Shown here in pieces: positions 1 to 57,644 of a stretch of 64,000 bases of DNA. How positions within the stretch are numbered: the first letter of the stretch is position 1; the number at the start of each line of letters is the position of its first letter. Under the pieces are notes generated by a model, which worked only from the letters and a program-made list of their open reading frames with translations, did no database searches and had not been told where the DNA came from. The translations under genes were made by a program, and so were the position numbers. The stretch is from positions 1 to 64,000 of the forward strand of contig JANYLH010000007.1 in assembly GCA_025357915.1 (NCBI GenBank), written 5' to 3'. Source of the DNA: Gammaproteobacteria bacterium (lineage in GTDB: Bacteria; Pseudomonadota; Gammaproteobacteria; Steroidobacterales; Steroidobacteraceae).

Positions 1-86
1 GGACGCTGCAAGGTTTACGACCGTGTTGATCTCGATGCGCACATGCAGGACGATAGGCAGCGAGGGCGGGCCTGGAAGGAGATTCT

Positions 87-41914: not shown

Positions 41915-43192
41915 GTGATAGAAAAGCGCGTGGCAACCCAACCCTTCAATCCTCGCCCGCGGTCCCTTGCCGCGCTGCTTGCGCTTGGCCTTTTGGCCGG
42001 CTGCGGCGGCGACCTGGGCGGCGGCGGCACGGTCGTGCCGGGCAGCAACGTGGCCTCCATCTTTGTCGACGGTGGGCCCGCCGGCGCGGTCAACGGCGTC
42101 AACGCGGCCTATGTATCGGTCACGGTGTGCGCACCGGGCTCGACCACCAACTGCCAGACCATCGATCACGTGCTGCTCGATACCGGCTCGACCGGCCTGC
42201 GGTTGCTGGCCACGGTGGCCGGCAGTGCCCTGACCTTTCCGCAGCAAGCGACGGCGGCCAGCGATCCGCTATGGGAATGCCTGGGCTTTGCCAATAGCTA
42301 CGCCTGGGGCAGCGTCCGCCTCGCGGATGTCCAGATCGCCGACGGCAAGGCCATGAGCCTGCCCATCCAGCTGATCGCCGACCCTTCGGCACCCGCCCCA
42401 CCCACCGACTGCACTTCACCGCTGACGCAGCCACCACCGCTCCCCGTGGATACCGTGGCCGCGCTCAATGCCAACGGTGTGCTGGGCGTGGGCGTGTTTC
42501 GCGAGGACTGCGGTACGGCCTGCAACAGCCCGCCGCCGCCAAACGTCGGCTATCAATACTACGTGTGCACGCCCGCCTGTGCAGGCGCCCTGGTGGCCAC
42601 GGCGCTGCAGGTGCAGAACCCCGTGTTCCGCTTCACGACCAACAACAACGGCGTGGTCATCGACCTGCCCGCCGTAGGCGCAGCCGGCTCCTTCGGCGCC
42701 CGCGGCTCGCTGATCCTGGGCATCGGCACCCAGAGCAACAATGCGCTGGGCACTGCCACGGTGCTGGCGACCGACCCCGCGACGGGCTTTGTGATCACCG
42801 ACTACAACGGACTGCCGCACGCCAATAGCCTCATAGACTCAGGTTCGCGGGGCATTTATTTCGATGACGCAGCCATTACCGCCTGTCCGGTCGGTAGCGT
42901 CGCCGAGGGGCTCTACTGCCCTGGCACGCCGCTGCCGCTTTCGGCTACCGTCCGCGACACCAATGGCGCCTCGGTCACGGTCAGTTTTTCGGTGGGCGAT
43001 GCGTTCAGCTTGCTGGACCCCGGTCCGCCAGCGTCGCCCAGCGCCAACTACAACGCGTTCAGCAATTTCGCGGGGCCGTTTCCCACAGCGGACGCCACCG
43101 CGTTTGACTGGGGCCTGCCGTTCTTCTACGGACGCAAGGTGTTCGTGGGCATCGAGGGCCAGTCGGCCACGGGGCCGTACTTCGCGTTCTGA
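41915..43192 (+). CDS. DUF3443-like lipoprotein with two aspartic-protease-like motifs
   Basis: 425 residues. A lipoprotein signal ends at a lipobox LLAGC (residue ~30) followed by a Gly-rich spacer. Two motifs recall the two lobes of pepsin-type enzymes: LLDTGSTGLRLL (about 88-99) and LIDSGSRGIYF (about 306-316). Eight or more cysteines suggest disulfides. The DUF3443 assignment is from memory of the family; its activity is unknown to me. GTG start at 41915, or GTG 41930. It is 66 bases after typA and convergent with the next gene. Confidence 0.75.
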   Translation: MIEKRVATQPFNPRPRSLAALLALGLLAGCGGDLGGGGTVVPGSNVASIFVDGGPAGAVNGVNAAYVSVTVCAPGSTTNCQTIDHVLLDTGSTGLRLLATVAGSALTFPQQATAASDPLWECLGFANSYAWGSVRLADVQIADGKAMSLPIQLIADPSAPAPPTDCTSPLTQPPPLPVDTVAALNANGVLGVGVFREDCGTACNSPPPPNVGYQYYVCTPACAGALVATALQVQNPVFRFTTNNNGVVIDLPAVGAAGSFGARGSLILGIGTQSNNALGTATVLATDPATGFVITDYNGLPHANSLIDSGSRGIYFDDAAITACPVGSVAEGLYCPGTPLPLSATVRDTNGASVTVSFSVGDAFSLLDPGPPASPSANYNAFSNFAGPFPTADATAFDWGLPFFYGRKVFVGIEGQSATGPYFAF

Positions 43193-43195
43193 TCT

Positions 43196-43214
43196 GCGCT
43201 GCACGCGGCAGCGC
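43196..43214. terminator. Hairpin between convergent genes
   Basis: GCGCTGC and GCAGCGC form a perfect 7-base stem with loop ACGCG, sitting exactly between two convergent stop codons. It could end transcription both ways, though no U run is seen. Confidence 0.45.
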
Positions 43215-43804
43215 TAGCGTTCGCCGTCCATGAAGCGCACGTAGCGCGTGAGCGCACGCCGCTGGTCATCCCACAGTTCGTAGCTGACCGTCTCCTCGCC
43301 AAGCTGCGTCTGCACCGCGAGGCTCCGCGCCGCAGCGATGAAGCGGAGCGTGGCCAGGTCGGTCGGGAACACCAGCGGATTGATATCCTGCCCCGGCGGT
43401 GCGTGCACCGCACGCGCGATGCCCAGGTCGGAGGGCGTCTTGCCGTTGGCCTCGAGCCTGATGCGGCGATCGTCGGCGATCAGCAGGAGCGAATCGGCGA
43501 GCGCCGAGGCGGGCGCATAGCGCGGGTCGAGAGTCGACCAGACGTAGGCGATCAGCACGTATTCGAGCTTGCCGCCACGATCAACCGAAGCGGCGGCGAG
43601 CGTGACGTAGTCGCGCAGGTTCGCGGCGCGCTCGCTGCGTTCGCGCGCGAAGATCAGGGGCGAGTCGACCACGTCGACGGTGGCGCCGGTCTGCTCGTCG
43701 AGGTATTCCTCGGGCTGTGGCACGGCCCGTCCGCCAGAGGCACCGGCACTGACGGCCAGCGCGCCCAGCCACAGCGCAGACAGAAACCATTGACGCGGCG
43801 CCAT
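43214..43804 (-). CDS. Exported protein of unknown function, last gene of the multiheme locus
   Basis: 196 residues with a signal peptide (hydrophobic 7-23) and a soluble domain without cysteines, heme motifs or recognised fold. Its ATG overlaps the stop of the outer-membrane barrel gene by one base (TGATG), so it is very likely co-translated with it and may assist the barrel or cytochromes in the periplasm. Confidence 0.7.
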   Translation of the reverse strand: MAPRQWFLSALWLGALAVSAGASGGRAVPQPEEYLDEQTGATVDVVDSPLIFARERSERAANLRDYVTLAAASVDRGGKLEYVLIAYVWSTLDPRYAPASALADSLLLIADDRRIRLEANGKTPSDLGIARAVHAPPGQDINPLVFPTDLATLRFIAAARSLAVQTQLGEETVSYELWDDQRRALTRYVRFMDGER

Positions 43805-46260
43805 CAGAACCCGATGCGGTAAGCAAGACTCACATAATAGCGCGATGTCTTCTGCGTCTGTACCGTGGCATCGCGCTTGCCCAGCTGGCCGCCGACCTCG
43901 AACTGCAGCAGGCGCCGGCCGCGCTGGTAGTCGATGAGCGCCGAAGGCAGGAACGACAGCTCGGTGCTGCCGTCGCTGCTCAACTGGCGATGGTCGATGG
44001 TCAGGCGCGGCCCGAGCCGCCAGTCGCCGCCGATCGGCATGCGGCTGGTCGCGGACAGCGAGCTGATCTTGCCCGTTTCGGTGTCGGCGTAAGCCACGCT
44101 GAGCACGTTGAAATCGCCCTTCCGCCACAGGTTCGAGCCATAGACCTGCGCCTGGTAGGACAGCGTCACTCCGGTGGCCGGCTGTGCGGGCACACCGCCA
44201 CTGGCGGGCGAGGCGCCGATTTTCGCCGCGTCCACGGTCGCCGAGAACTGGAAGCGCTGTCCGAGCGGCCGCGTTGCAGTCAGGCTGTAATTGGACGATA
44301 CGGCAGTGCGATCGCGCGCCAGCTGCAATATCTCATCGTCCGTAAACAGTGTCCGCAACTCGGCGATGATCGTCGTGCCCTGGCCGATCAGCGCGTTGCG
44401 GAGCGAGATGACCGGAGCGTTGCGCTTTTCGGCGTCGAAACTCAGGCTCCAGCGGTCGGGAAGCTGCACGGTGCCCAGCAGCGCCGCGGCATTCAGCGAC
44501 TTGAAATAGACGTCGTAATCGACCAGCGCCGTCAGTGAACTGTGGGGCAAGAGCAGGCGAGCCTCCAGGCCGGCGCCGCGCCGATCGGTGAAGCCATCGA
44601 AGCGCTGCTGCGCAAAGAACACGCTCGCATCCCAGTGCGCGCCCGGCGGCGTGTACGGAATGGCGATGGCCCAGAAGTTACGTCCGCGCTGAATCCCGCC
44701 GCTGGTCCGCTCAACCGGGTAACCAGCGGCAATATTGACGCCCAGCGCCGGCAGGAATTGCCATGAGGCAAAGGCGCCGTCGAAGGTGCCGAGCACGCCG
44801 CCGCCGTTGTTCGACTGACGGCCGAGGCGGGCCACCAGCCCCCACTTGCGGTCGGCAATCTCAAAGGACGCCACGCTGATGCGCTTGGTGGAGTCACCCG
44901 TGCTGGTGGCGGAGGCGCCGGCAAAATTCTTCGAGTAACCGGCGCTGACGCGGCCCATGAGGTCAAAGCGCTCGCCGCGCCGCCGCGCCAGCAGGTCGAT
45001 GTCGTTGTAGAGCGAATTCTGTTTCTGGCTCTGGCTGCCGTTGGGCACGACGCCGGTGCTGCCCGAGGCGGTATTGCTGACCGTCGAGCTGTCGTTCCGA
45101 TACATCTGCGCGAAGCCGCCGCTGAGGTTCCAGCCCTTGGCCGCCTCGCCCCCGCCGCCCGTGCCGGTGCGCGCACTGGTCGAGGCAGCGCGCAGTGTCG
45201 CCAGCCGGCGCGCAATGCGTTCGGCCGCCTCGCCCGCCGGGTAGCGGCGCAGATACTCCTCGTATTCGGCCTTGGCGTGGGCCAGCTGGCTCGCGCGTTC
45301 GCGCGCCAGGCCCAGCTGTTCCTGCATCGCGGCCCGCTGCGGGAACTCCGGCTGGCGCTGGAGTTTGGTGAGCGTGGCGATGGCAGCCGGGTAATTGCGC
45401 GCCGTCATGGCAACACGCGCCTCCGCCACGAGCTTGGCCAACGCGGCCGGATCGAGCGCCGGGTCGGCGCCGATCCGTTCCACCGCCGGCAGCACTTCTG
45501 CGCTGCCGCTCCCGGCAGCTGCGCTGACGTCGTCGCCAATCGCCAGCCAGGCGCGCGGATAGTCGGCGAGCGCCTGGTTAAGGAGCCGCTCGGCATCGGC
45601 GCGCTTGTCGAAGGGGCCCGCACGCAGGCGATACCAGGTCTGCTCGTCGACCACGGCCTGGCTTACGAACACCGGCGCCTTGAGCCGCTCGCGCGCCAGC
45701 TGCAGCTTCTCGGGCGCGAAATCCTTGGGCTGGGATTCCAGGTTGACGGCATAGGTGCTGACCGGGCCGGACGGTTCGTTGATCATGACCTTGCCGCGGC
45801 CGCGGGCGCGATCAATCAGTCGCAACCGCAGGCCGCGCGGATCGACGCCCTGCGCCAGCACGTAGCGTTCAGCCTTGCGGAAGCTGAACACCAGCGTGAC
45901 CTGGCCGGGCACATCGGATTCGACGCGCACGGCGTCGACAATGTGCTCGCCGCCTGAGAGCGGTGGCAGTTCGCCGGCAATCTGCGTGCCCGGCGTCAGC
46001 TGGCAATCGCCCTGCGGCTGCAGCTGGATGCGCAGTTCCTTCGATTCCGCGGCGGGCTGGTGCGTGATATAGCGCAGCGAACAGGTGAACTGCGCGACGA
46101 TGTCAGCCTGGTCGTCGTGATCATTGAGCTCGATGATATCGACGAAGCGCCCGGGGCCTGCCCCGGAGAGTTGCGCTATCGCCGCGTGGCCCAGGCCAAA
46201 CGCGGCAAATAGCGCAAATCCGAACCCCGCTGCCCGCACCCTAGTGCTTGAAGGCGGCAT
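43804..46260 (-). CDS. Outer-membrane beta-barrel protein with SPOR and TPR-like domains
   Basis: 818 residues. Signal peptide (about 1-29), a beta-rich N-terminal domain (40-165), a SPOR domain (about 168-243, TYAVNLESQ to AWLAIGDD), a helical TPR-like stretch (270-360), a Gly-rich linker, then about 440 residues of alternating strands ending SLAYRIGF with terminal Phe. The last part should be a large outer-membrane barrel. SPOR domains usually bind peptidoglycan, so this protein would span from cell wall to outer membrane. It overlaps the giant cytochrome gene by 20 bases, which suggests a working partnership like MtrB with MtrA, but no sequence likeness to MtrB was recognised. Confidence 0.8.
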   Translation of the reverse strand: MPPSSTRVRAAGFGFALFAAFGLGHAAIAQLSGAGPGRFVDIIELNDHDDQADIVAQFTCSLRYITHQPAAESKELRIQLQPQGDCQLTPGTQIAGELPPLSGGEHIVDAVRVESDVPGQVTLVFSFRKAERYVLAQGVDPRGLRLRLIDRARGRGKVMINEPSGPVSTYAVNLESQPKDFAPEKLQLARERLKAPVFVSQAVVDEQTWYRLRAGPFDKRADAERLLNQALADYPRAWLAIGDDVSAAAGSGSAEVLPAVERIGADPALDPAALAKLVAEARVAMTARNYPAAIATLTKLQRQPEFPQRAAMQEQLGLARERASQLAHAKAEYEEYLRRYPAGEAAERIARRLATLRAASTSARTGTGGGGEAAKGWNLSGGFAQMYRNDSSTVSNTASGSTGVVPNGSQSQKQNSLYNDIDLLARRRGERFDLMGRVSAGYSKNFAGASATSTGDSTKRISVASFEIADRKWGLVARLGRQSNNGGGVLGTFDGAFASWQFLPALGVNIAAGYPVERTSGGIQRGRNFWAIAIPYTPPGAHWDASVFFAQQRFDGFTDRRGAGLEARLLLPHSSLTALVDYDVYFKSLNAAALLGTVQLPDRWSLSFDAEKRNAPVISLRNALIGQGTTIIAELRTLFTDDEILQLARDRTAVSSNYSLTATRPLGQRFQFSATVDAAKIGASPASGGVPAQPATGVTLSYQAQVYGSNLWRKGDFNVLSVAYADTETGKISSLSATSRMPIGGDWRLGPRLTIDHRQLSSDGSTELSFLPSALIDYQRGRRLLQFEVGGQLGKRDATVQTQKTSRYYVSLAYRIGF

Positions 46261-49200
46261 CGCTTACCCGGTGATACGGCCCTGGCATCGGCTTGGCGAC
46301 CGTGCCCAGCGTCGCGTCACTGTATACATGGCAGGCACCGGTGCAGTTGCGCAGTTCGCCCGCGGTGTACTTCAGGCCATCGAGCGACTTCGGGTGCAGA
46401 TCCGGGCGGAAGTTCTTCGCGTGACAACCGGCGCAGCTACCGGTATCGGCCGGCGAAGCCCAGGGGATCTGCTCGGTGTTGCTGGTGTGGCAGGCCACGC
46501 AGGTCAGCGCAGCACGATGCTCACCCGGGTACGCCGCCGAGGCGTGGGCGAAATGCAGCACCGCCCAGTCCGGATAGCTATGGCAGGTCGCGCAGTCGCG
46601 CGTCATGACCATGTGCGTCGGCGTCACGCCCAGCGCAATGTTGTTGTCGTGGCAACTCGCGCAGCTGGCCGTCAGCCGGGTGTGATCAAGCCTGGCGGGT
46701 TTCCAGCCCAGCGTGCCATGGCAGGTATCGCACTGCGCGCTGGTCGGCACGTGGTTGGCCGGGAGCCCGGTGGCATGCAAGGAGTCGTGACAGGTCCTGC
46801 AGGTGTGCGCCGCCACGCCGACGTGATCGAAGTGCGCCGGCGTCCAGGCGTTGGTGGTATGGCAGGTCTCGCAGGTATCGCTGCTGGCGATGTGCTTGCT
46901 GCCCCTGCCCTTGGCCGCTGTGCCGTTGTGGCAGCTCACGCAGCTGCCCTTGACCTGCATATGATCGACGCGCGCGACCGGCAGCCAGGCCGCTGTCATG
47001 TGACAGCTCTCGCAACTGTCGCTGGTGGCGATGTGGCTGGCGGGCATGCCGATGCCGCTGGTCGGGCCGTGGCAGCTGACGCAGGCGGTGCCGGCGACGC
47101 GCCGGTGGTTGAAGCCCGTCGCGCCACCCAGCGAAGCGGCAGCGCTCAGCGCCGGGGCAGACCCCGCGACGGCGGTCCCCTTCTGGGTCGCATTGGCCGC
47201 CGCGCCGCGCCGCGTGGCGTACCGGTCGCGCGTGGAATGACATCCTGAGCCCCCGCAGTCCTGGCCCTTGTAGTGGTTCGCGCCATCGCGCACCCAGAGC
47301 CTGACGCCGGTGTTGGTCTTCCACTGCATGCCGAGTTCATGACAGTCCACGCATTTCATGGCTCTGACGACCGCGTGCTTCATGATCGTGCCGGCGAAAC
47401 TCGTGAACACCGTCGGCACATGGCACAGCTCGCAGGCAAAATTGTGTGCGCTGCTGTTGGGAGGATTGGTGGGAATGTGCCCGGTCGGCCCCGATGGTGG
47501 CTGCTTGAGCGCCGGCGGCGCGATGCCCGCGAAGCTCAGCCCGTAGGCGTGGCACTGCATGCAGTTGCTGGTGATGTTGACGTGGCTCATCACCGCCAGG
47601 CTGTAGTTGCCCGGCGTGGTGTGGCACAGCGCGCAATTGTTTTTGTCGGCTGCCGGAAGCGGAATGTGATTGGACGGCAGATCCGTGGCGCCCTTGAAGC
47701 TCGTGGTGTTGAAGTGGCAGGTGTTGCATTCACCTGCGACCACGTGCGCCGTGCCGTCCGCCTTCAGATCGGGGCGGACCTTGGTCGCGGGTGTGCCGAT
47801 CCAGGTCTTGCCCTTCTGGTGACAGGTCGAGCAGGCGATCGAAGTGACCACGCTGTGCACCATCGCCGAGGGCGACGTGTTGCTCACGTTGTTGAACATG
47901 AAAGTGTCGAAGGCCGTCTTCGAATGACACCCTTCGCAGGCGATCGTGCCAGTCGGGATGTGCGTTGCAGGCAGGGTCACCGTACGTTTTGGCGTAACGC
48001 CAACGTCCGTCTTGCCGCTGCCGTGACAGGTGATGCAGGCCACGCCGGCGACCGCCGTGTGCACCATGGCGGGCGGCGCCGTACCGCTCTGGTTCGGTAT
48101 CTTGAAGCCGCCAGGCTGCGTAAAGGTCGAGCTCGAATGGCACGCCTCGCAGGCCGCGGCGCCAAAGGGCACGTGCGTGGCCGGCGCCATGACCAGCACC
48201 GGAGCCGCCATGTTGGCAAAGCTCTTGCCGACCGCATGGCAGGTCGCGCAGACCGTGCTGACCAGGGCGTGGCCGGCGGACCCCATCGTGTAGACGGCAA
48301 AGTCGCCCCCGCCGGTGTGGCAGGTGCCGCAGTTGGCCGACTGGCCATTGGTCAGCGGAATGTGATTGGCCGGATAGTTCGTCGCACCCTGGAAGGTACT
48401 CGTCGACTTGTGGCAATCGGAGCACTCCCCGCTAACGGGGTGTGGCGGGTTCCCCGTCTGATGGGGCTCCGTCAACGGGCGCACGACGGTCGGCGGCGTG
48501 CCGGCGTCGGTCTTGCCTTTCTCATGGCAGGTCGAGCACACGGTTGCCGCCACCACGGTGTGCACCATCCCGGGAGGACTCGTGTTACTGGCGTTGCCAA
48601 ATCTGAAGGTGTCGAAGGCAGTGCTCGAGTGGCAGCTCTCGCAGGCGGCGCCCGCGAACGACACGTGGTTGTTCGCCGGTTGCTTCAGTACCGGCGGCGC
48701 CATGTTGGCGAAACTCTTGCCGGCGGCGTGGCAGGTCGAACAGACGTTGCTCACCAGGGCGTGTCCCGCGGTGCCCATCGCATAGGTGGCAAAATTGTTG
48801 GGGTCGGCGTGGCAGGTCGTGCAATTGGCTGACTGTCCGTTGGTGAGCGGAATGTGATTGACCGGGTAGTTGGTCGCGCCCTTGAAGCTGGTCGTCGACT
48901 TGTGGCAATCCGAGCACTCGCCGCTGGTCGGATGCGTAGCCCCGGAAGCTTCGAGGATCGGTCGCACGACCGTCGGCGGCACACCGACGTCAGTCTTGCC
49001 CTTCTCGTGGCAGGTCGAACAGACGATCGAGGTGACCACGCTGTGCACCATGGACGCAGGCACCGTGCCGCTGGCGTTGGTGAACTGGAACGTATTGAAG
49101 TTGCTGCCGGAATGGCAGCCGCCACAGGCGATCGCGCCGGTGGGGATGTGATTGACGGACGAGATCGTGACGGTGGCCTTCGGGGCTGTGCCGAAATCGG

Positions 49201-50428
49201 TCACTCCCGCACCGTGACAGGTGACGCACGCGGTCGCCGCCACGGCCGTGTGCACCATTGCCGGCGGCGTAGCGCCACTCTGGTTCGGAATCCGGAAACC
49301 GCCCGGGGTCGTGAAAGTCGCGTTCGAATGGCAGCTCTCGCAGGCCGCGCCACCGAAGTTAATGTGTCCGGACATCGGCGAGTTGGGCATCACCAGCACC
49401 AGCGGCGCCATGTTCGTGAAGCTGGACCCGTCGGCATGGCAGGTTGCGCAGGCGTTCGTGATGCCCGTGTGATCCATGATCTTGGTGGTGAAATCGCCAG
49501 GGACCGTATGGCAGAGCGTGCAGGGCTGCGCGGTGGGAATGTGACCAACGGGCTGCAGGTTGCCGGTGGCGAACGACACCGTGGACAAATGGCATATGCC
49601 GCAATCGCCAGTGGCCGGGTGGACCACGCCGCGCACGGTATCCGGGCGGGTCACGATGGTGGGGCCGATGAAGCTGCGGCCTTTTTCATGGCAGTCGGCG
49701 CACTGCAGGGGCGGGATCAGATTCGGCGCCAGGTGATTCATCGCCGTGCCGGAGAAGGAAACGTAGTTGGTCGGCGTGTGGCAGGCCTCGCAGGGCGCAT
49801 TGCCCACGTCGGCCTGGTTGGGCGAGAGCCCGGTCGGTATATGGGTCGGCGGCGCGCCCTTGGCGCCGGCGCCGTTGTGGCAGCTCTTGCAGCCGGTAGT
49901 CACATTGGTGTGATTGAACACCGCTCCGCCCCAGCCAATGGTGGAGTGGCAGAGGTTGCATTCGAGCGAAGTGTCGATATGCCCCGGCCCCTTACCCTGG
50001 GCCTTGCCCTTTTCGCCAGTGTGACAGCTCGAGCAGCTGCCGCGCGTTTCAGCATGATCGAAGTTGACCGCCGGACTCCAGGCCACCGGCGTATGACAGG
50101 CCTCGCAGCGATTCGAACTGAGAATATGATCGACGGTCTTGCCGGGCGCGCGCACGGCGGTGCCGACGCCGTGGCAGGCGGCGCAGTCCTTCGGGGTGCC
50201 CTTGAATATCGCGTTGACGTGGCAGGATTCACACGGCAGGTCGCGATGCTGGCCGATCAGCTCAAAGCCGGTAGTGAGGTGGTCGAAGGGCGTGCGGTCG
50301 GCGGCGTGCGCGCTGCCCACTGACAGCAGCAGCGCGGCGCTCACCGCGATGGCGACCAGCCAGGGTCGTACCGCCAGCGCGGCATGGACCGGCAGGAACT
50401 GCAATGAGAATCGTTTTGCGTTGTTCAT
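46241..50428 (-). CDS. Giant multiheme c-type cytochrome (42 CXXCH plus two variant motifs)
   Basis: 1395 residues from ATG 50428 (AGGA site 7 bases upstream). Sec signal with cleavage likely after residue 42 (AHA). I count 42 canonical CXXCH motifs, one CX4CH (CGGSGCH) and one CX3CH (CTGACH), giving up to 44 hemes. Three blocks are seen. An N-terminal block (hemes 1-11) and a C-terminal block (from the 33rd canonical motif on) share the pattern FDH..GSCxSCHxG..KG..HI. A central block is built of internal duplications. A polar Ala/Gly linker precedes the last block. No lipobox or membrane anchor is present, so it should be periplasmic or secreted. It lies between genes for a 21-heme cytochrome and an outer-membrane barrel. 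A role in long-range electron conduction is inferred. Confidence 0.9.
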   Translation of the reverse strand: MNNAKRFSLQFLPVHAALAVRPWLVAIAVSAALLLSVGSAHAADRTPFDHLTTGFELIGQHRDLPCESCHVNAIFKGTPKDCAACHGVGTAVRAPGKTVDHILSSNRCEACHTPVAWSPAVNFDHAETRGSCSSCHTGEKGKAQGKGPGHIDTSLECNLCHSTIGWGGAVFNHTNVTTGCKSCHNGAGAKGAPPTHIPTGLSPNQADVGNAPCEACHTPTNYVSFSGTAMNHLAPNLIPPLQCADCHEKGRSFIGPTIVTRPDTVRGVVHPATGDCGICHLSTVSFATGNLQPVGHIPTAQPCTLCHTVPGDFTTKIMDHTGITNACATCHADGSSFTNMAPLVLVMPNSPMSGHINFGGAACESCHSNATFTTPGGFRIPNQSGATPPAMVHTAVAATACVTCHGAGVTDFGTAPKATVTISSVNHIPTGAIACGGCHSGSNFNTFQFTNASGTVPASMVHSVVTSIVCSTCHEKGKTDVGVPPTVVRPILEASGATHPTSGECSDCHKSTTSFKGATNYPVNHIPLTNGQSANCTTCHADPNNFATYAMGTAGHALVSNVCSTCHAAGKSFANMAPPVLKQPANNHVSFAGAACESCHSSTAFDTFRFGNASNTSPPGMVHTVVAATVCSTCHEKGKTDAGTPPTVVRPLTEPHQTGNPPHPVSGECSDCHKSTSTFQGATNYPANHIPLTNGQSANCGTCHTGGGDFAVYTMGSAGHALVSTVCATCHAVGKSFANMAAPVLVMAPATHVPFGAAACEACHSSSTFTQPGGFKIPNQSGTAPPAMVHTAVAGVACITCHGSGKTDVGVTPKRTVTLPATHIPTGTIACEGCHSKTAFDTFMFNNVSNTSPSAMVHSVVTSIACSTCHQKGKTWIGTPATKVRPDLKADGTAHVVAGECNTCHFNTTSFKGATDLPSNHIPLPAADKNNCALCHTTPGNYSLAVMSHVNITSNCMQCHAYGLSFAGIAPPALKQPPSGPTGHIPTNPPNSSAHNFACELCHVPTVFTSFAGTIMKHAVVRAMKCVDCHELGMQWKTNTGVRLWVRDGANHYKGQDCGGSGCHSTRDRYATRRGAAANATQKGTAVAGSAPALSAAASLGGATGFNHRRVAGTACVSCHGPTSGIGMPASHIATSDSCESCHMTAAWLPVARVDHMQVKGSCVSCHNGTAAKGRGSKHIASSDTCETCHTTNAWTPAHFDHVGVAAHTCRTCHDSLHATGLPANHVPTSAQCDTCHGTLGWKPARLDHTRLTASCASCHDNNIALGVTPTHMVMTRDCATCHSYPDWAVLHFAHASAAYPGEHRAALTCVACHTSNTEQIPWASPADTGSCAGCHAKNFRPDLHPKSLDGLKYTAGELRNCTGACHVYSDATLGTVAKPMPGPYHRVSDAAFKH
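48060..49030 (-). repeat. Tandem internal duplication in the giant cytochrome gene
   Basis: Two adjacent copies, about 161-164 codons each and carrying five hemes each, are closely similar in DNA and protein. CSTCHEKGKTD, GECSDCHKST, NHIPLTNGQSANC and GHALVS recur in both, at an offset of 492 bases in the middle and 483 at one end. Similarity extends at a larger period, since the segment around the 12th-15th motifs resembles that around the 24th-27th. This points to stepwise growth by nested duplication. Confidence 0.8.
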
Positions 50429-50436
50429 AAAAATTC

Positions 50437-52002
50437 CTACCGGGCTCGGCCGCCCTGGAATGTCACCGTACCGTGGCAGCGTTGGCACTGCCTCCCGAAC
50501 TGGCCTGCGTGGATGTCATCCTTCTGATGACACGACACGCAATCCTGCGAAAGCTTCACTTCGGCCGCGGGCCTGCGATGGCAATCGGCGCACTTGATCT
50601 TACCGTGCGCGCCCGACAAGGCGAAACCTGTCTGTTTTTGGTGATCAAATACCCACACGGCCCAGGCGTTGGGCGTGTGACAGGTATCACACTTGTCGCC
50701 GAGCCCGCCTTTGTGGACGTCGTCTTTCTTGTGGCAATCGATGCAGCGGGACTTCACGTCAGTGAAGGCCTGGGTGCGATGGCACTGCGCGCAGCTGACG
50801 ACGTTATGTAAACCGAGCAGTGGGAATTTTGTCAGGTCGTGATCGAAGCTGATGTCGCTGTGCCAGTCCTGCTGGCCGTGGCAGCTGTCGCAGGCGGTCT
50901 TGAACTTCGCACCGTGCGGATTCGCCGCCTTGTGGCAGGCGACGCAGTCGCTGCCGAGTTTCTGTGTAGCGACGCTCGCGGTATGGCAAACATGGCAATC
51001 GAGTTTGGCATGAATGCCAACCAGCGCGAATTTGGTCTGCGCCAGGTGGTCGTACTTCACCGGCCGCCACTCGTCGTTACCGTGGCAGCTTTCGCATTTA
51101 ACCCCCAGGCGCCCGGCGTGCGAATCGTCCGCCTTGTGGCAGCCGACGCAGTCCTTCGGGAGTTTGTCCTTGAAATTGCCGCTCCGGTGACACCCCAGGC
51201 AATCCATCCTTGAGTGATGCCCGAGCAGCGCGAAGCCCGTCTGCTTCAGGTGATCGAACTTTGCTTCCTTCCAGCCCGTGGTGGTGTGGCACTTGCCGCA
51301 GTCATCGCCACGCTCGCCGCGGTGCGCATCGTCAGTGGCATGGCAGCCGACGCACACCTTGGGCGCCGGCTTATAGCGGCCGCCCAGGTGGCAGCCGCCG
51401 CAGCTCACTTCCAGGTGCGAGCCGGTAAGCCCGAACGCCGTCTTGCTGTGATCGAAGCGCGCGCCCGCCCAGCTGTCCGGATTGTGGCAGTCGCCGCAGG
51501 TGGCGGCCAGCTGCCCCTCATGATAATCGTCTTTCTTGTGGCAGCTGAGGCAGGCGGGCTCGGCCTTGCGGTAGGCCTCGCCGCTCTTGTGACAGCTCGC
51601 GCAGGCGAGCGCGCGATGCGCGCCTGCCAGGGTGAAGCCGGTGCGTTCATGATCGAACTCGAGCTTGTTCAGGCGCACGATGTCACCGTCGCGCCCCAGG
51701 TGCTCGGTGTGGCAGCCGACGCACTTGCCGGCGCCCGCATTGGGCATGCGCCCGTGGTACCCGCGGCGGTCGCGCACGTCGGCGGCGATGTCCTTGTGAC
51801 AGGCGAGGCACAGCGCGCTCTGACGCCCCCGGTCGGTGCGGTCGTGGCAATTGGTGCAGGTCTCCTCGAGCTTGGCGTGGGCGTTGGCGATCTTGCCGGG
51901 CATGAGCAGGGCCTCGACGGAAGTCGCATGCGCGGTCGCCGCGCTCACCAGGCTTGCTGCTGCCACCACTCGCACGAACCAGTGCACTCCTGTGCGTCTC
52001 AA
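50437..52002 (-). CDS. 21-heme c-type cytochrome
   Basis: 521 residues with a signal peptide (hydrophobic region about 8-25, ending TAHA). It has 21 CXXCH motifs in a regular array, with the recurring unit FDHxxTxFxLxGxHxxxxCxxCH and DCVxCHxxDDxHxG, as in cytochrome c3/paired-CXXCH families. The start is TTG 52002 or one of several GTG codons just inside. Eight bases separate its stop from the giant cytochrome ATG. Likely a periplasmic electron carrier taking electrons from the membrane cytochrome b encoded upstream. Confidence 0.9.
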   Translation of the reverse strand: MRRTGVHWFVRVVAAASLVSAATAHATSVEALLMPGKIANAHAKLEETCTNCHDRTDRGRQSALCLACHKDIAADVRDRRGYHGRMPNAGAGKCVGCHTEHLGRDGDIVRLNKLEFDHERTGFTLAGAHRALACASCHKSGEAYRKAEPACLSCHKKDDYHEGQLAATCGDCHNPDSWAGARFDHSKTAFGLTGSHLEVSCGGCHLGGRYKPAPKVCVGCHATDDAHRGERGDDCGKCHTTTGWKEAKFDHLKQTGFALLGHHSRMDCLGCHRSGNFKDKLPKDCVGCHKADDSHAGRLGVKCESCHGNDEWRPVKYDHLAQTKFALVGIHAKLDCHVCHTASVATQKLGSDCVACHKAANPHGAKFKTACDSCHGQQDWHSDISFDHDLTKFPLLGLHNVVSCAQCHRTQAFTDVKSRCIDCHKKDDVHKGGLGDKCDTCHTPNAWAVWVFDHQKQTGFALSGAHGKIKCADCHRRPAAEVKLSQDCVSCHQKDDIHAGQFGRQCQRCHGTVTFQGGRAR

Positions 52003-52018: not shown

Positions 52019-52867
52019 TCAGTACACGTTGACCGAAATCACGTGCACGATTCCAGCCACCAGCGTCATGATGAAAAATGGCACGTGCGCCACGTGCCAG
52101 AGCGAGAACAGCTTGACGTACATACCGTGCTCGCGCACCCGGCGCGCCGCGTCCAGGCGGCGCGTGGCGTAGCCCATCGCCGTGGCCGTCAACCGCGCGC
52201 CGTGAGCCGCCAGCGTGGGCGACTGCCGCGCTGCCTCGATCACCATATGGCGAATCTGGCCGTCGAGGCGCCAGCGCGCCAGCACCGAGCGCATGCCGAT
52301 CGTGACCGGATACAGCACTGCGCCCAGCGGTGATTTAGCCGGGCGAAACAGCCGCTTCTCCTCCGCCTCAATGGCGCTGAGGAAGTTGGGCAGCAGCGTC
52401 ACCGTGGTGGTCTGCTTGCGCAACTGCTCGGCCACGGCCTGGAGTTCCTCGAGCGAACTCTTGTGATTATCCCAGCCGTCGTAGACGCGGGTGTAGATAT
52501 AGCGCCCGATCAGTCCGCTGCCCGAGACCAGCAGCATGCACACCAGCGCGACGTTGCTGTTGGTGGCGCCGAGTGAAAAATTCGCGTGAAACAGCACCAG
52601 CAGCGGACCGACTACGCCGAGGGTCATGTGAGCCTTGAACCACCCCGGCACGCCGCCGAAGATCTTCAGCCAGGCGGCGCGCTTGCGCGCCGGGTACATC
52701 AGCAGCACCAGCATCATCGAGCCGCCGATGATGCCAAGCGCGTAGCCCAGCCCGCGGTCCGGCGTGATATAGTGATCGAGCCGCACGTTCAGGCCCCACA
52801 CGATCGCCAGGCAAACCACCAGGCCGAAGGCGCGTACCGGCGTCAGATGGCGCGCGATCAGGCCCAT
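52019..52867 (-). CDS. Membrane diheme-type cytochrome b
   Basis: 282 residues. About five hydrophobic helices. Two pairs of histidines are each 14 residues apart: His80/His94 in one helix and His261/His275 in the last, the classic arrangement for two b hemes held between two helices. A long soluble loop lies between (about 130-245). It probably links the quinone pool to the periplasmic multiheme cytochromes encoded downstream. The gap to the 21-heme gene is 16 bases and to the CcmI-like gene 3 bases, so all are one operon. Confidence 0.8.
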   Translation of the reverse strand: MGLIARHLTPVRAFGLVVCLAIVWGLNVRLDHYITPDRGLGYALGIIGGSMMLVLLMYPARKRAAWLKIFGGVPGWFKAHMTLGVVGPLLVLFHANFSLGATNSNVALVCMLLVSGSGLIGRYIYTRVYDGWDNHKSSLEELQAVAEQLRKQTTTVTLLPNFLSAIEAEEKRLFRPAKSPLGAVLYPVTIGMRSVLARWRLDGQIRHMVIEAARQSPTLAAHGARLTATAMGYATRRLDAARRVREHGMYVKLFSLWHVAHVPFFIMTLVAGIVHVISVNVY

Positions 52868-52870
52868 GGG

Positions 52871-54136
52871 CTAGCCGATCACCTTCTGGATGACGATGCG
52901 CACCGGCTTTGCGGCCGCGGGATCGAGTTGCGCCGTAACGCCCTGGAAGTCACCCGCCGCGGGCATCGCCTGCCCGGTCCGGGAGGTACGCGCCTCGATC
53001 GTGACGGGACCCGCCGAGGACAGGTTGCGCGAGGGCACCATGGCCTGCGAATCATCGAGCTGAAACGATACCGGCCACGAGCCCGTAGTCGTGCGCCAGA
53101 TCGCCACCGGTGGCCCTGGCGAATTCACCGACTTGGCCACGATGAACAGCGTCAGCCCGGCGGGTACCTTTCCCTTGAGGGCGTCAGCCAGCACGACTTC
53201 GCCGCGTACGATCACGCCGCCGGCCGCAGCGGCGGTGGCCGTGGCCGTGCCGCCACCGCCGCCAGCCAGCCGCTGGTCTTCAGCGAGATTCGCGGCAATC
53301 ACCTTGGCGTCTGCCGAGTTCGGGCCCAACGCCGCCGCCAGCCGCTGCCAGCTGCTCACCGCGGCCGGGTACTGGCGGGCCTCATGCTGCATGCTCGCCT
53401 GGAGCCACAGTGCCTTGGGATGCTGCGGATTGAGGCGCAGCGCGTTGCCCAGGTAGGTTGCTGGTGTGCCGAGGAGCGAACGGCCATTGAGCGATGCGGC
53501 GACGTCGGCGTAGTCCGCCCAGGTGTCGGCGGTCATTTCATTGCGTGCGGCGAGCTTCGCGTACAGTTTGTCCGCAGCGGCAAAATCGCGCCGGGATCGC
53601 GCCGCATCGGCGGCGGCGGCCAGTTTCGTCCCCTCAGTGGACAGCGACACTGCTGCGGCGGCAGCGAGTGGCCCCGCGGCGGCGCCCGCTCCGGCGGGCA
53701 GGCGCTTCTGGCGAGCCAGCGCGGCGTCATCCGGCCGGCCCATGAATTCATAGGACTTGGCCAACAGCTCCCAATCGCCATCTGCGCCGCCGCCCGCGGC
53801 AAGGCGACGCTCGAGCCCGGAAACCGCACTGTCCATGGGCCCGGCGGGCTGCTTCTGTGCCGGCGCCGCGCCAGGCTCGCCGGCCATCGCGCCACTCGCG
53901 GTGCCCGGCGTGGTGCCGGGGGTGGCATCCTGGTCATTCAGCTGCGGGCTGCCAAGCTTTATGTAAAGCACCAGCACCGCCACCAGCGCGGCGGCTCCGG
54001 CCACCGGCACCCAGCGCGGCAGGCCGCTGAGCATGGCAAGGCGCGGCTTGCCTGCGAGCCACGGATATACGGCGAACAGCAGCGCCACGGTCGCCAGGAC
54101 GCCTGCGGCAAAAAAGAAGGTGTTACCAGAATTCAT
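52871..54136 (-). CDS. CcmI-like cytochrome c biogenesis protein
   Basis: 421 residues. Two N-terminal helices (about 5-25 and 45-62), a soluble TPR-type domain (about 105-285) and a C-terminal beta domain. The order and the segment VIVRGEVVLADALKGKVPAGLTLFIVAKS fit CcmI/CycH, which holds unfolded apocytochromes for heme attachment. First gene of the multiheme operon. A dedicated chaperone copy would suit the attachment of some 65 hemes to the two cytochromes. Confidence 0.82.
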   Translation of the reverse strand: MNSGNTFFFAAGVLATVALLFAVYPWLAGKPRLAMLSGLPRWVPVAGAAALVAVLVLYIKLGSPQLNDQDATPGTTPGTASGAMAGEPGAAPAQKQPAGPMDSAVSGLERRLAAGGGADGDWELLAKSYEFMGRPDDAALARQKRLPAGAGAAAGPLAAAAAVSLSTEGTKLAAAADAARSRRDFAAADKLYAKLAARNEMTADTWADYADVAASLNGRSLLGTPATYLGNALRLNPQHPKALWLQASMQHEARQYPAAVSSWQRLAAALGPNSADAKVIAANLAEDQRLAGGGGGTATATAAAAGGVIVRGEVVLADALKGKVPAGLTLFIVAKSVNSPGPPVAIWRTTTGSWPVSFQLDDSQAMVPSRNLSSAGPVTIEARTSRTGQAMPAAGDFQGVTAQLDPAAAKPVRIVIQKVIG

Positions 54137-54354: not shown

Positions 54355-55665
54355 ATGAACTCGAGCCTGATCGTCATCTACGCCGCACCGCTCGTGGTCA
54401 CCATGTACTGGTACCTGCGGCGGCATTTCCGTATGGAAAACCACAGCCGCGCAGTCCACTTCGAGGCGAAGGAGGCGGGGCTTCTGGAACCCGCGTCGAT
54501 CCATCCGGTCATCGATCCGGTCCGCTGCCTCGGTTGCGGCGCCTGCGTGCGCGCCTGCCCCGAGTACCCGCAGCACACCGTGCTCGGTCTCATCGACAAC
54601 AAGGCGCATCTGGTCGCGCCGACTGAATGCATCGGGCACAGTGCCTGCAAGTCCGCCTGTCCGGTGGACGCGATTACACTGGTGTTCGGTACCGAGACGC
54701 GCGGCATCGACCTGCCGGTGCTCAATCCGAATTTCGAGACCAATGTTCCCGGCGTGTTCATCGCCGGCGAGCTCGGCGGCATGGGCCTGATCCGCAATGC
54801 CCTCACGCAGGGCGTCCAGGCGATGCAGGCGATCGCCAAGAAAGGCAACCGCGCGCCGGGCAAGCGCCTCGACGTGCTGATCGTGGGCGCCGGCCCCGCC
54901 GGCATGGGGGCCGCACTCACCGCCAAGTCGCTCAACCTCAACTACCGCTGCATCGAACAGGAATCGCTCGGCGGCTGCGTCTACAAGTATCCACGCGGCA
55001 AACTGGTCATGACCGCGCCGGTCGAGCTGCCGCTGGTGGGCAAGTTCCATTTCCGCCAGACCTCCAAGGAAGCGCTGCTCGGGGTGTGGACCGAGATCAT
55101 GAAGCAGCAGGAACTGCTCATTCAGTGCAATGAGCGCATTGAGGCCGTGGAGAAGGAAGGCGATGGTTTCATCGTCCGCACCACCAAAGACGTGTATCAG
55201 GCCTCGAACGTCCTGCTCGCCATCGGCCGACGCGGCACGCCGCGCAAGCTCGCGGTGCCCGGGGAGGAATTGCCGAAAGTCGTGTACCGCCTGATCGACC
55301 CCGACCAGTACATCGGCCAGGAAGTGCTGGTGGTGGGCGGCGGCGACAGCGCGCTCGAGGCCGCCGCGAGCATCGCGGAAGTGAGTGGCACACAGGTCAC
55401 GCTGTCCTACCGCGGCGATGCCTTTGGCCGCGCCAAGCCGAAGAACCGGCAGCGCGTCGCCGCGGCCGCCGACCGGGGCAACCTGAGACTCCTGCTGTCC
55501 TCGAACGTCAGTCACATCCACGACGACCTCGTGATCCTGGAACAGGGCGGCAAGAAAGTGGAAATCCGCAACAAGGCCGTGATCGTCAGCGCCGGCGGAG
55601 TGCTGCCCAACGAATTCCTCAACAAGGTCGGGATCCGCGTCGAAACCAAGTACGGTACGGCCTGA
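54355..55665 (+). CDS. Membrane-anchored iron-sulfur flavoprotein oxidoreductase
   Basis: 436 residues from ATG 54355. One N-terminal helix (about 5-21), then a ferredoxin-like part with cluster 1 cysteines 58, 61, 64 and 68 (CLGCGACVRACP). The second cluster has Cys92, Cys98 and Cys102, but His95 in place of the second cysteine (CIGHSACKSACP). From about 170 a thioredoxin-reductase-like domain has FAD motif VLIVGAGPAGMG and NAD(P) motif VLVVGGGDSALEAA. It probably moves electrons between NAD(P)H and a membrane or iron-sulfur partner. Divergent from the multiheme operon and followed immediately by the ankyrin gene. Confidence 0.82.
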   Translation: MNSSLIVIYAAPLVVTMYWYLRRHFRMENHSRAVHFEAKEAGLLEPASIHPVIDPVRCLGCGACVRACPEYPQHTVLGLIDNKAHLVAPTECIGHSACKSACPVDAITLVFGTETRGIDLPVLNPNFETNVPGVFIAGELGGMGLIRNALTQGVQAMQAIAKKGNRAPGKRLDVLIVGAGPAGMGAALTAKSLNLNYRCIEQESLGGCVYKYPRGKLVMTAPVELPLVGKFHFRQTSKEALLGVWTEIMKQQELLIQCNERIEAVEKEGDGFIVRTTKDVYQASNVLLAIGRRGTPRKLAVPGEELPKVVYRLIDPDQYIGQEVLVVGGGDSALEAAASIAEVSGTQVTLSYRGDAFGRAKPKNRQRVAAAADRGNLRLLLSSNVSHIHDDLVILEQGGKKVEIRNKAVIVSAGGVLPNEFLNKVGIRVETKYGTA

Positions 55666-57644
55666 TGAGCCGCGCGATGCGCTACCGGCTGGCGGCGCTG
55701 GCAGTGGCTGCCGTGCTGGCCGCCGGCGAGCTCAACGCTGCCGCACCAAAGGCGCCCGACCCGCTCGATGGCGCAAGGCTCGCGCTGCGCACCCGCGATT
55801 TTCCGACCGCTCTCGCCAAACTCCAGCTGAGCGCAAACGCCGGTAACGCCGAAGCGCAGCTGCTGCTCGGCCTCGTGCACCTCAACGGCGTAGGCACCGC
55901 CATCGACCGCGCGGCCGCCGAAACCTGGCTGTCGAAAAGCGCGGCGCAGAACAACGCCACGGCTCTGTACGTACTCGCCGCCCTGACCGCCAACAAGGCG
56001 GACGCGCGGCCCGGTGAGGCGCAAGCCCTGCTGCACAGGTCCGCTGCGCTCGGCTATCCGGCCGCCGTCGAGGACGAACGCGCCCGGCGCACGCCGCTCA
56101 GTCCGGAGTGGGCCGGGCTCGGCGAGTCCACGCTGCGCGTGGACCTCGCCATATACAGCGCCCGCAACGGCGACCTCGCCTGCCTCGGGACGCTGGGCGC
56201 CGGACTCAAGGAAATGCGCGATGTATTTGGCGCCACCGTGCTCGCGCATGCTGCGGCGGCCGGTGCGCTGGCGTCCGTGCAGTTCCTGATCGAGGGCGGA
56301 AGCAATGTGAACCGCGCCGACAGTTTTGGCGTGACACCGCTCATGCACGCTGCCGGGCTCGCGGACCCGCAGGTGCTCGAGCTGCTGCTGGCGAAGGGCG
56401 CGTCGGTCAACGCGGCCGACAATCAGCAGCGCACGGCGCTCTTTTATGCCGCGCGCGCCGATCGCGTCGCGGCCGTCACCGCGCTCGCCAAAGCCGGCGC
56501 GAAAGTGGACGCTGTCGACAGCCGCAACTACACCGCGCTGGATGCCGCGCTCACCGTGGACGCCAATCAGGCGGCAGCGCTGCTGCGCTCGCTCGGCGCG
56601 AAGACCCTGGTTGTGCATGCCAGTCGCCAGAGCACGGCCGGGAAATTCGACGCCGCCCGGCCGGGCGACATCTATCGGGGCTGGCCGGTAATCGCCCTCG
56701 CGGTAGCGCGCGGCGACACGGAATCGGTGCAGAGACTATTGGCCGGCGGCGCTGATGCCAACAGCCGCTCCGCCCAGGGCGACACGCTCCTGCACATCGC
56801 GATCCACGCCGGTTCCGAAGCCGGCGTCAAGGCGCTGCTCGCGGCGCACGCCAATCCGCGCCTGCCGGACAAGCGCGGCCGCACCGTGCTGGTCCTGGCG
56901 GCTACGCGCGGCGAGCTCAGCATTGTCAATGCCCTGCTGGCGGGCGGAGTCAACGCCGATACGCACGCCGACAAGGAATCGACGCCGCTTCTGGCGGCAG
57001 TGCGTGCCGGACGCATGGAGGTTGCCCAGAGCCTGCTGGCCGCGGGCGCAAAGCCCGACGCAGCCGACGAGCGCGGCGAGACGGCGCTCCACGCCGCCGC
57101 GAGCGCCGCCAACGACCCGCTCGTGAAACTCCTGCTCGCCAAAGGCGCCAGCGTCGACCTGGCTGACCGTGAGGGCCAGACGCCGCTGTGGCGCGCGGCC
57201 CGCGCCGGCGCAGCGGGGGCGGCGCGCTCGCTGCTGGCGGCCAATGCTGACGCCAACGCGGCCGCCAAGGAAGGCCTTACGCCGCTGATGAGCGCGATCG
57301 ACGCGGGCCAGGAACCGCTGGTGACGATCCTGCTGCAGGCACACGCCCGCGCTGATGTGAAGGCGGCACGCGGCGATACGCCGCTGATGCTGGCTGCGGT
57401 GCACGGCAGCGAGGCCATGGTGCAATTGCTCCTGCAACGCTCAGCGGCCGTGAATGCCCAGAACCAGGACGGCGACACCGCATTGATGGTGGCCAGCCGC
57501 GCCGGCAACGCCGCGGCGGTCAAGGCGCTGCTGGCGTCCGGGGCCAGCAAGGCGCTGCGCAACAACAAGCGGGCGACCGCGGGCGATGTGGCGCGCGACC
57601 GCGGTTTTGCGGCGCTGGCCTCGGCCATTGAAGGCGAGGGTTAG
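55665..57644 (+). CDS. Exported Sel1-like plus ankyrin-repeat protein
   Basis: 659 residues. A signal peptide (about 1-24) is followed by two or three Sel1-like helical repeats (about 35-125) and at least a dozen ankyrin repeats (about 165-650; recurring GxTPLxxAxxxGxxxxVxxLLxxGAxxN). Such scaffolds bind proteins. Its ATG overlaps the flavoprotein stop by one base (TGATG), so the two are co-translated. A periplasmic assembly or docking role for the multiheme system is inferred. Confidence 0.85.
   Translation: MSRAMRYRLAALAVAAVLAAGELNAAAPKAPDPLDGARLALRTRDFPTALAKLQLSANAGNAEAQLLLGLVHLNGVGTAIDRAAAETWLSKSAAQNNATALYVLAALTANKADARPGEAQALLHRSAALGYPAAVEDERARRTPLSPEWAGLGESTLRVDLAIYSARNGDLACLGTLGAGLKEMRDVFGATVLAHAAAAGALASVQFLIEGGSNVNRADSFGVTPLMHAAGLADPQVLELLLAKGASVNAADNQQRTALFYAARADRVAAVTALAKAGAKVDAVDSRNYTALDAALTVDANQAAALLRSLGAKTLVVHASRQSTAGKFDAARPGDIYRGWPVIALAVARGDTESVQRLLAGGADANSRSAQGDTLLHIAIHAGSEAGVKALLAAHANPRLPDKRGRTVLVLAATRGELSIVNALLAGGVNADTHADKESTPLLAAVRAGRMEVAQSLLAAGAKPDAADERGETALHAAASAANDPLVKLLLAKGASVDLADREGQTPLWRAARAGAAGAARSLLAANADANAAAKEGLTPLMSAIDAGQEPLVTILLQAHARADVKAARGDTPLMLAAVHGSEAMVQLLLQRSAAVNAQNQDGDTALMVASRAGNAAAVKALLASGASKALRNNKRATAGDVARDRGFAALASAIEGEG

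Follow-up and report, generated by a model that had tools for sequence, protein, structure and literature searches.

The closest described system is the PCC3-type porin-cytochrome conduit, which is widespread and includes some of the largest multiheme proteins known. As defined in the accessible text of He et al. 2017 (PMC5566968), a PCC3 set comprises a porin, an extracellular and a periplasmic multiheme cytochrome, and an inner-membrane protein (IMP). The same text reports medians of 34 hemes for the extracellular and 21 for the periplasmic cytochromes, with 22–39 aa per heme and up to 85 hemes in the outer cytochromes, and describes an IMP of ~300 aa with five TM helices, two WX3HX13H motifs and SGXXG. 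CX3CH and CX4CH are already counted as heme sites there, and a molecular wire is proposed. In the available part of Hoover et al. 2023 (PMC10734462), the PCC3 cytochromes were modelled as long, mostly linear molecules.

The window, which is the whole stretch of 64,000 nucleotides analysed here, harbors a gene for an extracellular-type multiheme cytochrome (MHCe, Table 1). A script recount of its ORF gave 42 CXXCH motifs, one CGGSGCH and one CTGACH, 44 sites in all, in agreement with the count and the 1395 residues given in the preliminary description of this DNA, which mentioned neither the minus strand of the gene nor the gene cluster that gives it its context. The most likely start is an ATG, residue 21 in a longer ORF that opens with GTG at 50488, and the N-terminus carries an alanine-rich, putatively signal-like segment (...SVGSAHA/ADRTPF). 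The heme sites occur at a density of one per 31.7 residues, all 88 cysteines lie within heme motifs with none spare, and 54 histidines lie outside the motifs (1.23 per site), with at least one of them present in 42 of the 44 heme segments. Pfam matches to cytochrome c7/c3 domains were obtained with E 6e-57. A chance origin of the CXXCH motifs was ruled out by shuffling the residues 500 times, which yielded a mean of 0.41 and a maximum of 4 CXXCH against the 42 observed. An assembly error was likewise rejected, as the gene is free of exact internal repeats of ≥25 bases and the orthologues are intact and similar in size.

The layout of the 44-heme cytochrome, derived by comparing its heme segments with one another, is given in Table 1. 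The positions of the CX4CH and CX3CH motifs are conserved in four contig relatives wherever the sequence reaches them, with 44 sites in L001, 50 sites each in L003 and L004, and the CX4CH motif visible in L002, which is ended by a contig edge; because of this conservation at equivalent places, the odd motifs are not sequencing noise. The reading of a heme-rich cytochrome with CX4CH and CX3CH heme-binding variants is supported by the complete use of cysteines, the conserved motifs and the relatives. Its description as exceptional holds in part: 44 sites exceed the published PCC3 median, but they are well below the published maximum, and same-family relatives carry 34–61 heme sites. Though remarkable by ordinary standards, the protein is ordinary within PCC3. 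In addition, three loci of genus g18 (L040:7333-12681, L052:8152-12000 and L053:8583-14123) carry a CX4CH at about every fifth site of the repeat block (12, 17, 22, 27, 32, 37, ...), which implies that the odd motif can belong to a repeat unit.

Table 1. Positions and contents of the features in the window, in the 44-heme cytochrome and elsewhere in the genome.
Feature	Position	Strand	Size and content	Remarks
Small exported-looking protein	43214..43804	-		Final gene of run; conserved near OMP in most order-level clusters
Outer-membrane protein (OMP)	43804..46260	-	818 aa; signal peptide, SPOR and TPR-like domains	
MHCe, extracellular-type multiheme cytochrome	46241..50428	-	1395 aa, 44 heme motifs	Basis: motif count, repeat classes, Pfam c7/c3, orthologues
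N-terminal block of MHCe	sites 1-8			
Repeat block of MHCe	sites 9-32		7-, 5-, 7- and 5-heme units	Shared segment classes
CX4CH motif CGGSGCH, site 33	47237..47257	-		11 sites before end; junction of repeat and C-terminal blocks
Doublet block of MHCe	sites 34-41		Short doublets of ~47 residues	Like sites 3-7
Conserved end of MHCe	sites 42-44			
Terminal CX3CH motif CTGACH, site 44	46328..46345	-		Followed by conserved C-terminal tail; His 19 residues past motif
MHCp, periplasmic-type multiheme cytochrome	50437..52002	-	521 aa, 21 CXXCH	Repeating triheme pattern
Inner-membrane cytochrome b-like protein (PCC3 IMP)	52019..52867	-	282 aa	
CcmI/CycH-like protein	52871..54136	-	Ig_CycH domain	Extra copy
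4Fe-4S/FAD pyridine-nucleotide oxidoreductase	54355..55665	+	436 aa	Divergent
Ankyrin-repeat-like protein	55665..57644	+	659 aa; putative repeats	Conserved neighbour
MtrCAB-type cluster	L065:5138-12773 (G000:C85)		OmcA/MtrC, DmsE/MtrA and MtrB/PioB families, PdsA-like diheme, NapC/CymA-like tetraheme	

The cytochrome gene lies in a run on the minus strand, in the order CcmI-like protein, IMP, MHCp, MHCe, OMP and small exported-looking protein, with gaps or overlaps of at most about 20 bases. The grouping IMP-MHCp-MHCe-OMP on one strand is common to relatives, and much of the cluster block recurs in relatives at the family, order and class levels. The IMP has five TM segments, two WX3HX13H motifs (WFKAH...H at 76 and WHVAH...H at 257) and SGLIG at 117, exactly as published for PCC3. 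MHCp, for which a periplasmic location is predicted, adjoins the IMP gene, its 21 CXXCH motifs equal the published median, and it has a density of 24.8 aa per heme. The 44-site cytochrome, predicted to be extracellular, contains 5- and 7-heme repeats, and its spacing falls within the published 22–39 aa per heme. The window cluster was filed as a PCC3 member because He et al. 2017 (PMC5566968) defined PCC3 by these same features. The 44-heme protein very probably serves as the extracellular cytochrome in a porin-cytochrome conduit of the PCC3 type, an assignment made against the published description of PCC3.

The OMP gave a SPOR match and weak TPR matches, and it has an amphipathic C-terminal half and a final Phe, suggesting that this half is probably a beta-barrel 'porin'; no match to the curated barrel models was obtained for it. 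SPOR was also above the Pfam cut-off in six OMP homologues, and OMP homologues occur in the equivalent neighbouring position. A second CcmI-type copy and the sole CcmF match of the genome, which is high-scoring, sit together on contig C3. The divergent oxidoreductase gene is beside most clusters and among the best conserved genes, with 51–87% identity where found. A DUF3443 protein (window 41915-43192, plus strand) adjoins the cluster and is also near the clusters of several relatives.

A paired comparison set of 53 clusters in which both cytochromes are complete was then used. The periplasmic partner carries 21 motifs in 49 of them, while three clusters have a partner with 24 and one has a partner with 18, whereas the outer cytochrome ranges from 16 to 144 motifs, with a median of 30. 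By a stricter rule than that of the initial terminal-motif list, which took in three periplasmic proteins, the outer cytochrome ends on an expanded motif in 46 of the 53, with CX3CH in 38, CX4CH in six, and CX6CH and CX9CH in one each. The remaining seven end on a CXXCH, and five of these, from the family of the window organism, are missing a few sites at the end of the C-terminal block. The order-level outer cytochromes with an expanded end contain 805 canonical motifs, and no expanded motif was found in the periplasmic partners of those clusters. The spacing class of the end motif changed at least 10 times on the tree of the periplasmic partners.

A histidine in the tail after the end motif was present in all 38 CX3CH endings and in none of the eight CX4CH, CX6CH and CX9CH endings. 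The association gave a Fisher p of 3e-10 on a slightly larger list of related rows (42/0 vs 0/9), and all five independent pairs on well-supported branches agree with it; the tail-His rule is suggestive and not proven, because the rows are related and the sign test gives p 0.06. What is new here is the enormous variation in outer length, the nearly fixed inner length and the almost constant, oddly spaced end heme site, rules that arose from inspecting the data while several definitions were adjusted. Neither the fixed-inner/variable-outer rule nor the end-motif rule was found stated in the available main texts of the PCC3 papers. We tentatively propose, at rather less than an even chance, that the outer cytochromes of PCC3 act as wires of variable length bearing one obligatory specialised end heme (CXnCH, n = 3, 4, 6 or 9), to which the tail His would supply a ligand at n = 3 but not at the larger spacings, giving two alternative designs of one end heme that serves as tip, docking contact or maturation signal.

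The largest outer cytochrome of the set, L124:3022-15237 (G436:C17:43021-55236), has 4071 aa and 144 motifs (133 CXXCH, 10 CX4CH and a terminal CX3CH). Its gene adjoins a 24-heme partner and an IMP on a 104-kb contig, and its motif number exceeds the 85 and 86 of the published accounts, as far as their accessible texts go. Near another PCC3 cluster, L126:4783-9998 (G260:C126) holds two multiheme ORFs whose polyproline tails finish in repeats rich in Gly and His (GGGHGGGH).

The proposed conduit would have hemes attached at all 44 sites, mostly with bis-His coordination. The cytochrome b-like IMP would exchange electrons with the divergent FAD/4Fe-4S enzyme, with quinone or with both, the 21-heme partner would span the periplasm, the OMP would pass the chain across the outer membrane, and the 44-heme protein would carry electrons outside by heme-to-heme hopping, with the expanded terminal motif perhaps marking a distinct end heme that is a tip, a docking point or a maturation signal. 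The near-constant inner partner is consistent with a fixed width of the periplasm, and the variable outer cytochrome with reach or storage as the evolvable part. The preliminary description had suggested a single-chain wire, which is plausible and is also the hypothesis published for this family (PMC5566968). AlphaFold2 runs on two overlapping halves of the protein, with an alignment of only five rows, gave pLDDT values of 26.5 and 27.1, too low for the models to be used.

Expanded motifs are generally rarer substrates of the maturation machinery, and the extra CcmI-like protein in the gene run could reflect a demanding maturation, both of which would suit a partly loaded protein in which many sites are empty or the odd-spaced motifs are without heme. 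However, every cysteine sits in a motif, the CX3CH and CX4CH sites are kept across relatives and not decayed, and the genome has a high-scoring CcmF-family gene, making partial loading highly improbable. It is also conceivable, though unlikely, that the protein works chiefly as a capacitor, outside the cell or on its surface, in which the heme number sets charge capacity and not reach, an idea raised in the available parts of PMC10734462 and PMC7399161. The spread of outer heme numbers from 16 to 144 beside a partner near 21 speaks for such storage, but the apparent operon with an outer-membrane protein and an inner-membrane redox protein suggests conduction, and the two roles are not mutually exclusive. 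The comparison of clusters yields testable rules, namely a fixed inner length, a variable outer length, a special end heme and conserved extra partner genes (the CcmI-like protein, the FAD/4Fe-4S enzyme and the SPOR-bearing outer-membrane protein), which indicate the parts to cut and the quantities to measure in a culturable isolate and would help to decide whether heme number means reach or charge storage.

Import of electrons from Fe(II) or minerals and export to them are both candidate directions for the conduit. An importing conduit that oxidises Fe(II) or minerals would feed the quinone pool and, via the divergent FAD/4Fe-4S enzyme, NAD(P)H; it is a possibility that falls somewhat short of an even chance. 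PCC3 has been found in known iron oxidisers (PMC5566968, accessible text), most clusters have the FAD/4Fe-4S gene as a conserved neighbour, and three COX1-type genes in the window genome would provide an acceptor, whereas no RuBisCO was found in this genome (2.67 Mb, 93% complete) and both PCC3 clusters of S. lithotrophicus ES-1 were down-regulated on Fe(II), according to the available part of PMC8788666. One ES-1 PCC3 outer cytochrome also has the value 0 in every proteome listed in the accessible portion of PMC12016527, and because of this value and the down-regulation, an iron-oxidase activity is doubtful. In strain CL21 the PCC3 genes were expressed above the mean, and the available text of PMC12442390 calls PCC3 functionally unverified. 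A conduit that exports electrons in parallel with MtrCAB, allowing oxides or humics to be respired anaerobically, can be entertained with similar reserve. The window genome has an OmcA/MtrC-family cytochrome, a DmsE/MtrA-family decaheme, an MtrB/PioB porin, a PdsA-like diheme and a NapC/CymA-like tetraheme in support of it; but the complete MtrCAB set would already fill the role, Mtr systems may run in both directions, and nothing links PCC3 to export.

Other multiheme genes were also observed in the window genome. The contig ends L037:11745-14845 (G000:C71 end) and L038:1-3328 (G000:C6 start) share an exact overlap of 141 bases, and when joined they form one ORF of 2109 codons with 64 CXXCH, one CRGACH and one CGGSGCH, 66 sites in all. 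This ORF is probably a second, orphan paralogue of the outer cytochrome, next to which neither a porin nor an IMP was seen. At L066:235-2854 (G000:C38), a second protein resembling the IMP (28% identity) adjoins an ORF with ten motifs, and the two are possibly a porin-less relative module. A DNA pattern for paired CXXCH motifs, which was too strict, gave no match in this genome.

Compared with PCC3, the window cluster is alike in its gene set, gene order, IMP motif signature and 21-heme periplasmic cytochrome, as well as in its large outer cytochrome with repeats and a low number of residues per heme. It adds a conserved CcmI-like gene, the divergent FAD/4Fe-4S oxidoreductase, an ankyrin-like gene and the SPOR/TPR domains on the OMP, four additions that were not found in the accessible published PCC3 text. 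With MtrCAB, MtoAB and PioAB it shares the logic of a periplasmic cytochrome, an outer-membrane barrel and a surface cytochrome, and a weak similarity to TIGR03508 and TIGR03507, but its IMP and OMP differ and the genome has a separate MtrCAB-type set. Both of these families were rejected for the 44-heme cytochrome: the OmcA/MtrC family (TIGR03507) scored 61.3 bits against a curated cut-off of 209.3, and the DmsE/MtrA family (TIGR03508, ~10 hemes, against 44 sites here) scored 107.6 bits against 192.2. The best PDB match was 9eov (E 3.6e-05), and no OmcS, OmcE or OmcZ entry was among the matches to E 10. Those nanowires are nevertheless alike in having dense heme chains, for which long-range extracellular transfer has been proposed, and OmcZ has one expanded motif, CX14CH, according to the available text of PMC11208441, but they are polymers of small cytochromes, whereas the 44-heme protein is one long chain. 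The large ANME multiheme cytochromes (PMC9012536, accessible part) are archaeal, carry S-layer domains and occur without the porin or PCC3 partners, yet they resemble the 44-heme protein in their very high heme number per chain, which reaches 86.
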